Origin: an uncultured Clostridia bacterium
GTDB lineage: Bacteria > Bacillota > Clostridia > UBA1381 > CAJOGA01
Length of the DNA stretch: 46,370 nt
Direction: 5' to 3'
Assembly: GCA_905233855.1 (NCBI GenBank)
Contig: CAJOGA010000002.1
Location: 1 to 46,370, forward strand
Position 1 is the stretch's first letter; each line of letters starts with the position of its first letter. Below are positions 9,463 through 27,357 of the stretch, piece after piece. The notes under the pieces were generated by a model. It saw only the letters and a program-made list of their open reading frames with translations, made no database searches and was not told the origin of the DNA. The position numbers were made by a program, and so were the translations under genes.

Positions 9463-10365
9463 ATGGCAAGTACAAAAGTAATAGAAGCCGGAGAAATAAA
9501 AGTATACGATAAAGCATTATTAAGCTTTTCAGGCGTTGATGGATTTGACGTTTACAACTGCTCAATACCGTTTAAAAAAGACAACAAAACGTATATTTAC
9601 GGCAGAGTTGAAAGAAGAAACGAATGGGCAAGATCTCATGTACGCTTGTTTGAAGAAACCGAAAAAGACAAATTCACCGTTGTTAAGGATTCAATGATTT
9701 ATAATTATCTGGAAGATCCGTTTATTGCCTTCATAGGTGAAACTCTTGTCCTTGGCGGAACACAAGTTGAATATGACGGCGGTAAGCTGTCGACATATAA
9801 ATCATGTTTTTATCGCGGCACAGATTTGAATGACTTGTATTTGTTCGCAAGTGCTCCCAACCGCATGAAGGACGTCCGTCTTGTTGAATTGGAGAACGGC
9901 AATATAGGCGTGTTTACACGTCCTAACGGAAGAGTCGGTTTTACAATCATAAAAGACCTCAACGAATTAACCGCCGAAAACATGCAAAACGCTCCTTTAA
10001 TAGACGCTGTTGAAGCAGGCGAATACGGCGGCTGCAACCAATGCTATTATCTTAGAAGCGGCAAAATCGGCATTATAGGACATCAGGCCTATCACAAGCC
10101 TGCCGGGGTTGTTCATTATGTTAATATGTCTTATGTTATGGACATAGAAACACGCAAAATCATAGATAAAAAGGTTATAGGCACAAGAAGCTGTTATACC
10201 GACAACGACTCGGACTTCAAGCCTAATACAAACAACTTAAGCGATGTTGCTTTCACCTCCGGTTACGTTATGCGTCCGGACGGAAAAGTTGATTTATACA
10301 GCGGTCTTAAAGACATGTGTGAAGGCAGAATAACTATTGACGATCCGTTTGCGGATTACAGATAA
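9463..10365 (+). CDS. DUF1861-like, predicted five-bladed beta-propeller protein
   Basis: Repeated blade-like motifs (YIYGRVERRNEWARSHVRLFEE; VRLVELENGNIGVFTRPNGRVGFTII); RBS aaggagg. Confidence 0.65.
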   Translation: MASTKVIEAGEIKVYDKALLSFSGVDGFDVYNCSIPFKKDNKTYIYGRVERRNEWARSHVRLFEETEKDKFTVVKDSMIYNYLEDPFIAFIGETLVLGGTQVEYDGGKLSTYKSCFYRGTDLNDLYLFASAPNRMKDVRLVELENGNIGVFTRPNGRVGFTIIKDLNELTAENMQNAPLIDAVEAGEYGGCNQCYYLRSGKIGIIGHQAYHKPAGVVHYVNMSYVMDIETRKIIDKKVIGTRSCYTDNDSDFKPNTNNLSDVAFTSGYVMRPDGKVDLYSGLKDMCEGRITIDDPFADYR

Positions 10366-10378
10366 TTCTTATGCGAAT

Positions 10379-10430
10379 AAAAAAAACACAGGATCTCTTG
10401 TTTTGGCAGGAAATCCTGTGTTTTTTTTAT
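10379..10430. terminator. Bidirectional rho-independent terminator
   Basis: aaaaacacaggat ... atcctgtgtttttttt between convergent genes. Confidence 0.85.
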
Positions 10431-11414
10431 TTATTCACAATAATAATTGCCCAAAAATTCAAAATATTCAAGCGTATCGTTAAGATATAAAAGCAGGCTC
10501 ACGGTTTTTTCATCTTCTATGTTTCCGGCAAAATCAAAATAAAACAAAAACTCAAAATCTTTGTCCGGCAGCGGACGAGATTCTATCTTCAACAAATTCA
10601 ATTTTGCAATATAAAACATATTAAGCAATTCGGAAAGTGAACCCATTTTATGCGGCAATGTCAGGCAAACGCTTATTCTGTCGGCTTTTTTATCTATATA
10701 CACCTGTTTTGTTATACACACAAAAACAGTTCGGTTTGTGGTAGTGTTTTGTATATCCTTTTCCAAAATATTCAAGCCGTAAAGATCTGCACATTTTTCC
10801 GATGCTATCGCGGCAATATTATCATCACTTTCCGCAACCATACGTGCGGCGGCAGCGGTATTGGAATACGGATGTATGTTGATATGCGGATATTGTGCAA
10901 GAAAATCTCCGCATTGCGACAAAGCCTGTTCGTGTGAGTATATATCCGTGATTTTATATATATCGACATTGTTTTTTGCAAGCAGACAATGACGTATATC
11001 AATCAAAACCGCTCTGGAAATGAAAAAGTGGTGCTTTCGCATAAGGTTATACACGCCTATAACAGACCCCGATGTGGAATTTTCTATGGGAATAACGCCC
11101 GCATCCACACTGCCGTTCTCAACAGCGTCAAACACGCTGTCAAAATCCTTGCAGAACATTATGCTTTTGGCTTTGGGAAACAACTTATCACACGCCATGG
11201 AAGAAAATGCACCGTTCACTCCCTGACACGCAATTCTGATATTGCTGTTGTCGGATGAATAAAAATTATTGTTTTTTGCGTTTTTAAGAATGTTCAGCAA
11301 AGAGCTTGACGCTTTACCCTGTACCGATTCAGCTTTCAAACATTTAAAACGCATATCCATAAGCTCGCTGATCTTTGCATCTATATCATTTACGGTACAA
11401 TTATATTCGTTCAA
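10431..11414 (-). CDS. pheA: Prephenate dehydratase with C-terminal ACT domain and a short chorismate-mutase-like N-terminus
   Basis: IACQGVNGAFS, VIPIENSTSGSV, SHEQALSQC, ACT motif IESRPLPDKDFEFLFYFDF; TTG start with ggag RBS, adjacent to aroF. Confidence 0.9.
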   Translation of the reverse strand: MNEYNCTVNDIDAKISELMDMRFKCLKAESVQGKASSSLLNILKNAKNNNFYSSDNSNIRIACQGVNGAFSSMACDKLFPKAKSIMFCKDFDSVFDAVENGSVDAGVIPIENSTSGSVIGVYNLMRKHHFFISRAVLIDIRHCLLAKNNVDIYKITDIYSHEQALSQCGDFLAQYPHINIHPYSNTAAAARMVAESDDNIAAIASEKCADLYGLNILEKDIQNTTTNRTVFVCITKQVYIDKKADRISVCLTLPHKMGSLSELLNMFYIAKLNLLKIESRPLPDKDFEFLFYFDFAGNIEDEKTVSLLLYLNDTLEYFEFLGNYYCE

Positions 11415-11426
11415 AAAAAGACACTC

Positions 11427-12437
11427 CTACATAACTTTATTTTCAGCCTGAATATATTTTTTAAGGCTGCTCATTACGCCGTCGAACTCATCCGGATTGA
11501 GCGACTGTGCACCGTCGGACAAGGCAGCTTTAGGATTGTCATGCACCTCTATTATGAGACCGTCGCATCCTGCGGCAATAGCGGATTTAGACAACGGCTC
11601 AACCAACCATGTAATACCCGATGCGTGCGACGGGTCAACAATAACAGGAAAATGTGAAAGCTTTTTCAAAATAGGCACCGCAGAAATATCCAAAGTATTT
11701 CTTGTGGTCGGCTCAAAGGTGCGTATGCCTCGTTCGCACAAAATGATATTTGTGTTACCTCCTGCCGTGATATATTCTGCACTCATCAGTAATTCCTCTA
11801 TTGTGTTTGCCAAACCGCGTTTCAAAAGGATAGGCTTTTTGCAATGTCCCAACTCTTTCAGCAATTCAAAGTTTTGCATATTTCTTGCCCCAACCTGTAT
11901 AACGTCCACGTCAGCAAACAAATCCAAATGTGAAAGCGACATTATCTCTGTAACGATCGGTAAGCCGGTTACTTTTTTTGCTTCAAGAAGCAATTCTATA
12001 CCCTCTGCACGCAGGCCTTGGAAAGTGTACGGTGATGTCCTTGGCTTGAACGCACCGCCTCTTAAAAAATTAGCTCCCGCCGCCTTAACACGCTGTGCAA
12101 CCTCTATTATCTGATGCTCCGACTCAACCGAGCAAGGCCCGGCTATAACGGCAAAGTTTCCTCCGCCGATTTTTATACCGTTAACGTCAATTACCGTGTC
12201 TTCCGGATGCATTTTTCTGTTAGCGTTTTTGTAAGGCTCCTGAACTCTGGTTACAGTGTCGACAATATCATATGCTCTGATGGCATTAATATCAATTTTG
12301 GATGTATCGCCTATAAGACCGAATACGCTTTTGTGTACGCCGTTTATAGGGGCAATTTTTACATTATAACTTTCAAGCCACGTGTGAAGCTCCTTAACCT
12401 TTTCTTCCGATGCGTTTGGATGTAATACTACAATCAT
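11427..12437 (-). CDS. aroF: 3-deoxy-7-phosphoheptulonate (DAHP) synthase, AroF/KDO8PS-like type
   Basis: FAVIAGPCSVES, LRGGAFKPRTSPYTFQG, PVIVDPSHASG. Confidence 0.95.
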   Translation of the reverse strand: MIVVLHPNASEEKVKELHTWLESYNVKIAPINGVHKSVFGLIGDTSKIDINAIRAYDIVDTVTRVQEPYKNANRKMHPEDTVIDVNGIKIGGGNFAVIAGPCSVESEHQIIEVAQRVKAAGANFLRGGAFKPRTSPYTFQGLRAEGIELLLEAKKVTGLPIVTEIMSLSHLDLFADVDVIQVGARNMQNFELLKELGHCKKPILLKRGLANTIEELLMSAEYITAGGNTNIILCERGIRTFEPTTRNTLDISAVPILKKLSHFPVIVDPSHASGITWLVEPLSKSAIAAGCDGLIIEVHDNPKAALSDGAQSLNPDEFDGVMSSLKKYIQAENKVM

Positions 12438-12471
12438 GATAATTTAATTCCTTTCTGTTTTAAAATAATGT

Positions 12472-12509
12472 AAAAAAGCCGGTATCACGCTTTGTCGCAT
12501 GATACCAGC
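12472..12509 (-). terminator. Intrinsic terminator in the aroF leader (candidate attenuator)
   Basis: Minus strand gctggtatcatgc-gacaaa-gcgtgataccggc-tttttt: 13-bp stem with two G-U pairs plus a U6 tract, between the small ORF and aroF. Confidence 0.85.
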
Positions 12510-12548
12510 TTAATAATTTGAAAAACAATATATTTTCCGAACTAAAAA

Positions 12549-12659
12549 CTAATTACAGACAGACAAAGCTTTGAATTTTGCACGCCAATAAACCTGTGCA
12601 TAATAAAAGACACAAGCTATAAAGGCAAAATATAATGCAAAATTTAAAACTGCTGCCAT
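12549..12659 (-). CDS. Unannotated 36-aa aromatic-rich ORF, candidate leader peptide of aroF-pheA
   Basis: MAAVLNFALYFAFIACVFYYAQVYWRAKFKALSVCN*; 5 Phe, 4 Tyr, 1 Trp; GAAAGGA RBS at 12669-12675; promoter upstream and terminator downstream. Confidence 0.75.
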   Translation of the reverse strand: MAAVLNFALYFAFIACVFYYAQVYWRAKFKALSVCN

Positions 12660-12691
12660 TTTGGTAGTTCCTTTCAATATCATTTTTAAAG

Positions 12692-12721
12692 ACTATAACA
12701 CCGTTTATACGTTTTTGTCAA
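12692..12721 (-). promoter_or_regulatory. Sigma-A promoter of the aroF leader
   Basis: Minus strand TTGACA-18-TATAGT. Confidence 0.7.
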
Positions 12722-12769
12722 TACTGTTTTTTTGATAAAGCAAAAAACATTAAGTTTTATTTGCTGTTT

Positions 12770-13864
12770 TTATACATTAAATCTGAACAACACGATGTCG
12801 CCGTCCTGCATAACATACTCCTTACCCTCTGAACGGACAAGACCTTTCTCCTTCGCTGCCGCCATTGAACCGCATTCCATCAGGTCGTCATATGCAACAA
12901 CCTCAGCACGGATAAATCCGCGTTCAAAATCACTGTGTATCTTTCCTGCCGCCTGCGGTGCTTTTGTGCCTTGAGTGATTGTCCACGCACGAACCTCAGG
13001 CGTTCCTGCTGTAAGATAGCTTATGAGACCAAGCAGTTTATAGCTTGCCTTAACAAGCCTGTCCAAACCTGATTCGTTAATCCCCAAATCGTTAAGGAAC
13101 ATTTTCTTTTCATCAGCATCAAGAGCGGATATTTCTTCCTCTATCTTGGCTGATATAGGCATAAGCTCCGCCTTTTCCGCATCGGCAAGCTCTTTTACTT
13201 TGCTTACGAAAGAATTATTTTCTATACCGTTTACAAAATCATCCTCCGCAACATTTGCCGCATATAAAACAGGTTTTAAAGTGAGCAATGCAATCTCTTT
13301 CACAATTCTGCCTTCATCATCGGTAAAGTCAAGACTACGGGCAGGTTTGCCGCTCTCTAATGTGGCTTTTATTCTTTCTAAAAGTGCAAGCTCGGTTGCC
13401 AAAGTTTTGTCGCCCTTCATGGCTTTTTTCGTTTTGTCTATACGTTTGTCGATCATATCAATATCGGCAAATATGAGTTCATAGTTAATTGTTTCTATGT
13501 CACGTACAGGGTCTATGCTGCCGTCAACATGTGTGATGTTTTCGTCTTCAAAGCATCTTACCACATGGACTATTGCATCAACCTCACGTATGTGAGACAA
13601 AAATTTGTTGCCCAAGCCCTCTCCCCTGCTTGCACCCCGTACCAGTCCTGCAATATCCACAAATTCGATAATGGCAGGGGTTATTTTTTCGGGGTTATAC
13701 ATCTGTGCCAGCTTATCCAGACGTTCGTCCGGCACCGCAACAACACCGACGTTAGGTTCTATTGTGCAAAACGGATAATTGGCAGATTCCGCACCTGCCT
13801 GAGTTATAGCATTAAACAAAGTGGATTTACCGACATTTGGCAACCCGACTATACCTAATTTCAT
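12770..13864 (-). CDS. ychF: Obg-like ATPase YchF
   Basis: GIVGLPNVGKSTLFNAIT, FVDIAGLVRGASRGEGLGNKFLSHIREVDAI, C-terminal TGS domain (EVVAYDDLMECGSMAAAKEKG). Confidence 0.96.
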   Translation of the reverse strand: MKLGIVGLPNVGKSTLFNAITQAGAESANYPFCTIEPNVGVVAVPDERLDKLAQMYNPEKITPAIIEFVDIAGLVRGASRGEGLGNKFLSHIREVDAIVHVVRCFEDENITHVDGSIDPVRDIETINYELIFADIDMIDKRIDKTKKAMKGDKTLATELALLERIKATLESGKPARSLDFTDDEGRIVKEIALLTLKPVLYAANVAEDDFVNGIENNSFVSKVKELADAEKAELMPISAKIEEEISALDADEKKMFLNDLGINESGLDRLVKASYKLLGLISYLTAGTPEVRAWTITQGTKAPQAAGKIHSDFERGFIRAEVVAYDDLMECGSMAAAKEKGLVRSEGKEYVMQDGDIVLFRFNV

Positions 13865-13974
13865 AATACATCAATCTCCCTTTAACTGTTTTCAGCAACA
13901 TTTCACAGTATATCACATCAACTCTGTTTTTTCAATAGCTGCATATTAATATCGGAAGTATTTTTTTTACACAA

Positions 13975-14012
13975 AAAAAACGTATCGCACAAATTGTACG
14001 ATACGTTTTTAT
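13975..14012. terminator. Rho-independent terminator downstream of tuf
   Basis: aaaacgtatcg-cacaaattgta-cgatacgtttt with flanking A/T tracts. Confidence 0.8.
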
Positions 14013-14042
14013 CAGATTGTTTTACAAATCTTCAGTTTAAAA

Positions 14043-15245
14043 TTACGCTTCAATAGCTGTAACAACGCCGGAACCAACTGTTCTGCCGCCTTCACGGATA
14101 GCAAAACGAAGTCCTTCTTCGATAGCTATAGGAGTGATAAGTTCAACGCTCATTGTGATGTTATCGCCAGGCATACACATTTCTGTGCCTTCAGGAAGGC
14201 TGATAACGCCTGTAACGTCTGTTGTTCTGAAATAGAACTGAGGTCTGTAGTTGTTAAAGAACGGTGTATGACGTCCACCTTCTTCTTTGGTAAGAACGTA
14301 AACTTCGCCTTTAAACTTTGTATGAGGATTGATTGTGCCCGGTTTAGCTAAAACCTGACCTCTTTCAATTTCGTTTCTCTGAACACCACGGAGAAGAGCA
14401 CCGATGTTGTCGCCTGCTTCAGCCTGATCAAGAAGTTTTCTGAACATTTCTATACCTGTTACAACAACTTTTCTTGTTTCAGTTGTCAAACCAACGATTT
14501 CAACTTCGTCAGACATGTTAAGTGTACCTCTTTCAACTCTACCTGTAGCAACAGTACCACGGCCTGTGATGCTGAATACGTCTTCAACAGGCATCAAGAA
14601 AGGCTGATCGCTCTTTCTTTCAGGAGTTGGGATGTAGCTGTCAACAGCATCCATAAGATCAAGGATACATTTGTACTCAGGAGCATTGATATCTGTAGAA
14701 TCAGATTCAAGAGCTTTAAGAGCAGAACCGATGATGATAGGAGTATCATCTCCAGGGAAATCGTATTCGTTCAACAAATCACGAACTTCCATTTCAACGA
14801 GTTCGATAAGTTCAGGATCGTCAACCTGGTCAGCTTTGTTAAGGAAAACAACGATGTAAGGAACGCCAACCTGACGAGAAAGCAAGATGTGCTCTCTTGT
14901 TTGAGCCATAGGACCGTCAGATGCAGCTATAACAAGGATAGCACCGTCCATCTGAGCAGCACCGGTGATCATGTTTTTAACGTAGTCAGCATGCCCCGGG
15001 CAGTCAACGTGTGCGTAGTGACGTGTGTCTGTTTCGTACTCAACGTGTGCAGTAGAGATTGTGATACCTCTTTCTCTTTCTTCCGGAGCTTTATCGATCA
15101 TATCGTAAGCTTCGTATGTTGCAGCACCTTTAAAAGATAATACTTTTGTGATTGCTGCTGTAAGAGATGTCTTACCATGGTCAACGTGACCAATTGTGCC
15201 GATATTAACGTGTGGTTTTGTTCTTTCATATTTTGCCTTAGCCAT
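14043..15245 (-). CDS. tuf: Elongation factor Tu
   Basis: [40 protein letters not shown]. Confidence 0.98.
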
Positions 15246-27059: not shown

Positions 27060-27357
27060 TTGTTAAAGACAATGAAAAAGCACAGTAGGCTGTGTGTTGC
27101 AGTACAGAGAGAAACGTCATAGGCTGAAAGCGTTTCCAAAATGCTTTTGCATTTGCTCGCATATGCTGAACCTTCGGCTTTGGAGTTGCATGGCTGAAAC
27201 CTGTATTTGTTTTTAAAAACAGTATCGGCGTGTAAGTTATGACGTTTACCGTGCGTTAAACGGATTAAAGTGTCGGTTTGTTGGCAAACCGGAATATAGG
27301 TGGTACCGCGGAGATATTAACTTCGTCCTTGTTTTTTGGGGACGAAGTTTTTTTAAT
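27060..27357 (+). ncRNA. T-box riboswitch upstream of pheST
   Basis: agagag ... ggctgaaag Stem I apical elements; T-box core aggtggtaccgcgg at 27298-27311; terminator aacttcgtcc ... ggacgaagttttttt at 27319-27355. Candidate UUC specifier at 27173-27175 (not certain). Confidence 0.93.

Follow-up and report, generated by a model that had tools for sequence, protein, structure and literature searches.

The window analysed here is a stretch of 46,370 nucleotides from an uncultured Clostridia bacterium. On its minus strand it carries aroF (11427-12437), encoding a DAHP synthase with a ferredoxin-like N-terminal domain (PF00793, PF18152 and TIGR01361 in Pfam and NCBIfam searches), and pheA (10431-11414), encoding a prephenate dehydratase (PF00800 in the Pfam search) and lying 12 nt past the aroF stop codon. 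These domain matches agree with the identities that an initial annotation, made from the letters alone, had given to both genes. The prephenate dehydratase (10431-11414, minus strand) has a TTG start and, ahead of its PDT domain, about 60 residues that might be what is left of a chorismate mutase. Located 5' of the aroF leader on the same strand is ychF, which ends at 12770.

Upstream of aroF, a short translatable ORF with a ribosome-binding site is present between a promoter and the structural gene, and an intrinsic terminator is present between this ORF and aroF, the first structural gene. The sigma-70-type promoter TTGACA-18-TATAGT (12692-12721, minus strand) has 11 of the 12 consensus bases and ranks best among the sites in 10300-14100; its -35 element TTGACA is at 12721-12716, the spacer is 18 nt and the -10 element TATAGT, at 12697-12692, is preceded by TG. 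The Shine-Dalgarno site GAAAGGA (12669-12675, minus strand), recognised by its sequence, is followed by a leader ORF of 36 codons, MAAVLNFALYFAFIACVFYYAQVYWRAKFKALSVCN (12549-12659, minus strand; ATG at 12659 and TAG at 12549), which is assigned from its sequence and from homologous leaders. Its conceptual translation bears out the aromatic content first read for it, 10 of 36 residues (5 F, 4 Y and 1 W), and the control codons are F7, Y10, F11, F13, F18, Y19, Y20, Y24, W25 and F29. The terminator stem-loop, here called segments 3:4 (12476-12511, minus strand; -24.9 kcal/mol), lies 37 nt past the ORF stop, close to the 40 nt originally estimated, and has a U-rich tract on its 3' side. It had been described as a 13-bp hairpin with U6; the terminator with its U-rich tail is present, and its stem (12511-12476) has 15 pairs including G-U, not 13, with a loop of 6. 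The promoter, ribosome-binding site, ORF, terminator, aroF and pheA were all found where the initial annotation had placed them. The gap between the terminator and the aroF ATG at 12437 is 38 nt and contains the aroF ribosome-binding site. No good promoter for aroF was found 3' of the terminator, where the sites have 9/12 consensus bases and overlap the aroF start codon; aroF should therefore depend on read-through.

The leader ORF matched no Pfam or NCBIfam family at cut-off, and the leader gave nothing above the gathering score in Rfam, permissive thresholds giving chance-level matches only. The fold of the leader RNA is unusually stable (z -5.5). A DNA similarity search with the leader matched the end of ychF, plus three short, seemingly spurious matches, of which the one overlapping the leader ORF (G028:C14) had no leader at its locus on inspection. 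No other convincing leader was found in the window and in seven loci of its own genome.

The aroF loci used for comparison came from four sources, namely 80 by genome-contig scan, the same order, an even class draw, and 40 from the same phylum; the first three gave 195 distinct aroF upstream regions, on which the counts are based. Under a strict rule, a leader was called where an ORF 12-60 codons long was preceded by a Shine-Dalgarno site, had a stretch of 8 residues with 4 or more F/Y/W and was followed by an intrinsic terminator past its stop codon; 98 of the 195 loci qualified, the classifier having been designed after relatives had been inspected. The same rule recognised 2/195 reverse complements, 4/386 regions upstream of other genes in the same loci and 0/585 dinucleotide shuffles, and none of the 15 loci with a divergent aroF (<55% identity). 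Relaxing the rule to an ATG start with a weak Shine-Dalgarno site, 5 or more aromatic residues out of 8 and an optional terminator gave 1/195 hits on the opposite strand and 3/390 in shuffles. Together, both rules find a leader in 121 of the 180 loci whose aroF has 55% identity or more, and the aromatic positions are kept in these ORFs while other residues drift, which is the pattern of conservation that the initial annotation had set as its check. The leaders of relatives have lengths of 17 to 59 residues, with persistence limited to the aromatic clusters (e.g., MKNMFFAAEYYYYYFFFMDKKE, MAYLVFAAFFFFFSWGFYFSTGSFCCKKILPFKK and MKLNGFYFYGYYFFEPIS). Of these 121 loci, 96 have a promoter of at least 10/12 no more than 130 nt 5' of the leader start, versus 12 on the opposite strand, and 77 have the exact TTGACA. 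The family extends over dozens of families of the Clostridia and neighbouring classes, and the leader was also seen in other classes of its phylum, in a set of loci with no formal control. This type of aroF was additionally observed in contigs labelled Lentisphaerae, Victivallales, Treponema or Spirochaetales (L028, L036, L042, L043, L055, L066, L071 and L078), with Phe/Tyr leaders before aroF in L042 and L043; here, the operon may have been transferred horizontally together with its attenuator, or the contigs may be mis-binned.

Codons for the end products of the pathway are over-represented and conserved in the frame of the ORF, as seen in the 10/36 aromatic residues of the window leader and in comparisons of frames, alignment columns and Tyr share. 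Among 97 distinct leaders, the ORF frame has 16.6% F and 11.3% Y, versus 9.3% F and 1.4% Y, and 9.5% F and 4.0% Y, in the other two frames of the same DNA; this excess is inflated because the leaders were picked on aromatic clusters, so that the shuffles and the opposite strand are cleaner controls than the frame comparison. In an alignment of the nearest group of the window (14 leaders), F, Y and W replace one another in seven columns that are at least 86% aromatic, and identity to the window peptide is only 14-28%. The gene after aroF in the leader loci is tyrA in 69, aroB in 26 and pheA in 6, and the Tyr share, Y/(F+Y), is 0.49 before tyrA versus 0.29-0.30 before aroB or pheA (Mann-Whitney p 1.8e-9). 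When loci whose aroF genes share 72% identity or more are merged, which is a rough correction for relatedness only, the shares are 0.48 versus 0.31-0.33 (p 0.0025). The natural reading of these sequence data is that the leader would act as a sensor of charged tRNA-Phe and tRNA-Tyr. Sensing of Phe, Tyr and Trp had been proposed initially; the codon content of the leaders agrees with the Phe and Tyr parts, and the part of Trp is minor, with a mean of 0.36 W per leader across the 97 distinct leaders.

Across the aroF leader family, 1-2-3-4 pairing as known from attenuators of the trp/phe type is enriched. Past the aromatic cluster, and typically around the stop codon, lies a segment whose sequence is complementary to one near the ORF start and also to the 5' arm of the terminator, with an excess of this dual pairing over shuffles (mean z -1.53 ± 0.14, Wilcoxon p 2.6e-14; 37/98 loci at p<0.05). 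The three segments differ between loci, yet they covary in sequence, as in L024 (CCGCAGTCT, CGACTGCG and GTCCGCAGTCT) and L012 (ATCAGCTTT, AAAGCTGC and GTAGCTTTA). When the RNA downstream of a stalled ribosome was folded as far as the loop of the terminator, upstream pairing took up 74% of the terminator 5' arm, versus 56% in shuffled sequences; a ribosome placed at the stop codon lowered this to 29%. Engagement of 60% or more of the arm was found in 86 of the 98 loci in the stalled state, versus 15 in the other state.

In the window leader, segment 1 (GGCAGCAGUUUU; 12646-12657, minus strand) covers codons 1-5, just 5' of F7-F13, and when the complete leader is folded to minimum energy its partner is 12572-12558; F7, Y10, F11 and F13 adjoin segment 1 on the 3' side, as in L024 and L012. 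Segment 2 (12542-12572, minus strand), defined by folding, comprises the last codons, the stop and a few nt more, and has segment 1 or segment 3 as a partner. The antiterminator hairpin predicted by folding (segments 2:3; 12489-12569, minus strand; -24.8 kcal/mol) has a z of -5.46, and 0 of 200 shuffles were equally stable; the energy of this full hairpin is the window's own support for the pairing. In co-transcriptional intermediates, the antiterminator forms with a ribosome stalled 5' of the hairpin; it is absent when a ribosome sits at the stop codon and, by computation, would mask most of the 5' arm of the hairpin. The stall states had all RNA 5' of the ribosome removed, on the assumption that segment 1 is unable to reach round the ribosome, which is safe for F7-F13 and less so for F18-W25. 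The computed antiterminator and terminator are thus mutually exclusive, the former being permitted by a stall and blocked by a ribosome at the stop codon. The antiterminator is complete once RNA polymerase has transcribed the first nt of the 3' arm of the terminator; in the complete RNA, the terminator is favoured at equilibrium in every modelled ribosome position. Because the terminator is more stable once its 3' arm is complete, read-through has to be kinetic. A short-duplex (12-nt) scan for segment 2 in the window was not significant (p 0.93), because the window antiterminator is a longer hairpin with an internal stem in co-transcriptional folding, and the fraction of the terminator arm that is paired was not significant for the window alone (p 0.17). 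Given the equilibrium preference and these two statistics, the family-wide mechanism is surer than the exact pairing in the window. Another hairpin of the minimum-energy fold, at 12617-12592 with CUUUUAUUAU in its loop, was weighed as a candidate switch and set aside, there being no competition between it and the terminator.

Here it is proposed that the locus is very probably a ribosome-mediated attenuator, in which the supply of charged tRNA-Phe and tRNA-Tyr, and possibly tRNA-Trp, would set read-through into aroF-pheA. The anatomy, its conservation and the in-frame aromatic selection are obtained directly, as are, by computation, the competing structures; the attenuator suggested in the initial annotation is supported by the conservation of the ORF and by the family-wide enrichment of the predicted terminator/antiterminator logic. 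From here we infer that the leader is translated, that ribosomes stall on it, and which way and how strongly read-through responds. The leader RNA would start near 12685. With plentiful aromatic amino acids, the ribosome would reach the stop codon at 12549 and mask segment 2 (about 12566-12537), allowing the terminator at 12511-12476 to form and ending the RNA at roughly 215 nt. With scarce aromatic amino acids, the ribosome would stall on aromatic codons, most likely in the first cluster, F7-F13, because there it masks segment 1; the released segment 2 would then pair with the 5' arm of the terminator as the antiterminator (12569-12489), before the 3' arm exists, and aroF-pheA would be transcribed. 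Without translation, the 1:2 pairing would form and the terminator would remain.

Three other explanations can be weighed against this attenuator. The peptide is hydrophobic and its length is close to that of a membrane helix, as would suit a genuine gene for a small membrane-type protein that ends in a terminator of its own, aroF being transcribed from elsewhere. This is very improbable, since leader lengths run from 17 to 59 residues with the aromatic clusters alone persisting, the ORF has no protein family match, aroF lies 38 nt past the terminator with the sole promoter-like sites (9/12) overlapping its start codon, and competition between terminator and antiterminator is predicted across the family. 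It also seems highly unlikely that the ribosome is arrested, in a TnaC-like manner, by a nascent peptide that responds to free Phe or Tyr, instead of tRNA charging being sensed via codon occupancy. Some residues beyond the aromatic clusters do recur, such as an Arg-x-Lys after the last aromatics in the window's group and endings such as FCCK in many leaders; however, the order and length of the peptides drift widely, the clusters are simple F/Y runs, and some of the recurring pieces may be translations of the complementary RNA segments 1 and 2 (e.g., CCGCAGTCT and CGACTGCG in L024). Arrest of this kind by a free ligand normally requires fixed residues.

The presence of ychF 5' on the same strand, with its end at 12770, and the A+T-rich region would allow a terminator that merely ends ychF read-through next to an ORF arising by chance in T-rich DNA. 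This can hardly be reconciled with a rule that recognises 98/195 aroF loci versus 0/585 shuffles and 2/195 opposite strands, nor with a promoter that recurs between ychF and the ORF, in the same place, in 96/121 relatives; furthermore, a terminator for ychF would be expected ahead of the leader promoter. A T-box (stem I with specifier loop and T-box sequence) was also considered for the window aroF leader and rejected, as the leader had no match to Rfam RF00230.

The window genome has five T-box matches. These include a full-length T-box immediately before pheS-pheT (27063-27333, plus strand; 85 bits, just below the Rfam gathering score of 93), and another is found about 700 nt ahead of a trpE-type gene; the trp operon of this genome probably carries a T-box. 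The commoner use of T-boxes in Firmicutes, noted in the initial annotation, holds within this genome in that pheST and, probably, the trp operon carry them. With the aroF leader and the pheS-pheT T-box, one window would contain two kinds of charging sensor for genes of aromatic amino acids. In one other Clostridia family, a T-box lies directly before aroF and replaces the leader in three loci (L150, 528-792; L162, 2314-2585; L173, 2341-2607), and relatives there carry the peptide leader. Four loci of other classes also have a T-box-like sequence, 81-95 nt ahead of aroF. The leader peptide and the T-box appear to be exchangeable at aroF.

Leader-peptide attenuation is classical in enterics, and in common accounts the aromatic genes of Firmicutes are controlled by T-boxes, TRAP and repressors, with leader-peptide attenuation belonging to enterics and Actinobacteria. 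As in the enterobacterial pheA/trp/his attenuators, whose mechanism is restated in PMC9413887 and PMC1183508, the window leader has a short ORF rich in product codons, segments 1-4 and an intrinsic terminator before the first biosynthetic gene; however, its host is a Clostridia-type Firmicute, its target is aroF-pheA, and Phe and Tyr codons are both used, with no Rfam leader matched above the gathering score and no demonstrated sequence relation. The nearest precedent is the uORFC-13-1 motif, known from 24 sequences of Acholeplasma and environmental DNA only, for which attenuation of aroF has been proposed (Brewer et al. 2021, PMC8632094). Like the window leader, it has a predicted uORF with Phe codon(s), a promoter and a terminator before aroF, although it has a U run coding for at least one Phe where the Clostridia family has Phe/Tyr clusters; its text description, which was compared in place of its sequence, is compatible with the window leader (PMC8632094). 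Classical leader peptides with terminator and antiterminator, and their exchange with T-boxes, have also been reported for His in Firmicutes (Bacilli, Peptostreptococcaceae and Erysipelotrichales; Naville and Gautheret 2010, PMC2965389; PMC9413887), but these precede histidine genes in few genomes (17 in PMC9413887). The Leu-rich attenuator of Staphylococcus aureus ilv, with genetic evidence (Kaiser et al. 2018, PMC5794164), is likewise leader-peptide attenuation in a Firmicute, and differs in concerning branched-chain amino acids and the Bacilli. T-box leaders (RF00230) share with the window leader the sensing of tRNA charging ahead of amino acid genes and, in some relatives, the same place before aroF, but bind the tRNA directly and have no ORF. 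No description of a Phe/Tyr leader family of Clostridia aroF operons was found in Rfam or in the open-licence papers searched, and the window leader is apparently a widespread member of a known mechanism, undescribed as a family. Such ORFs are short and diverse enough to escape ORF tracks and Rfam.

It is reasonably likely that a clade-wide family of these leaders governs aroF operons in Clostridia and neighbouring classes, swaps with T-boxes, and has its Phe:Tyr mix tuned to tyrA versus pheA or aroB. If true, few amino acid leader-peptide systems outside the Proteobacteria and Actinobacteria would be as widespread as the aroF leaders. The two kinds of tRNA-charging sensors would become directly comparable within one cell and at one gene, and the leaders would form a natural series for following how the amino acid mix of a sensor tracks the gene content of the operon. 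In a large group of Clostridia whose genomes also have T-boxes, leader-peptide attenuation appears to be a common control of the entry enzyme of the aromatic pathway.
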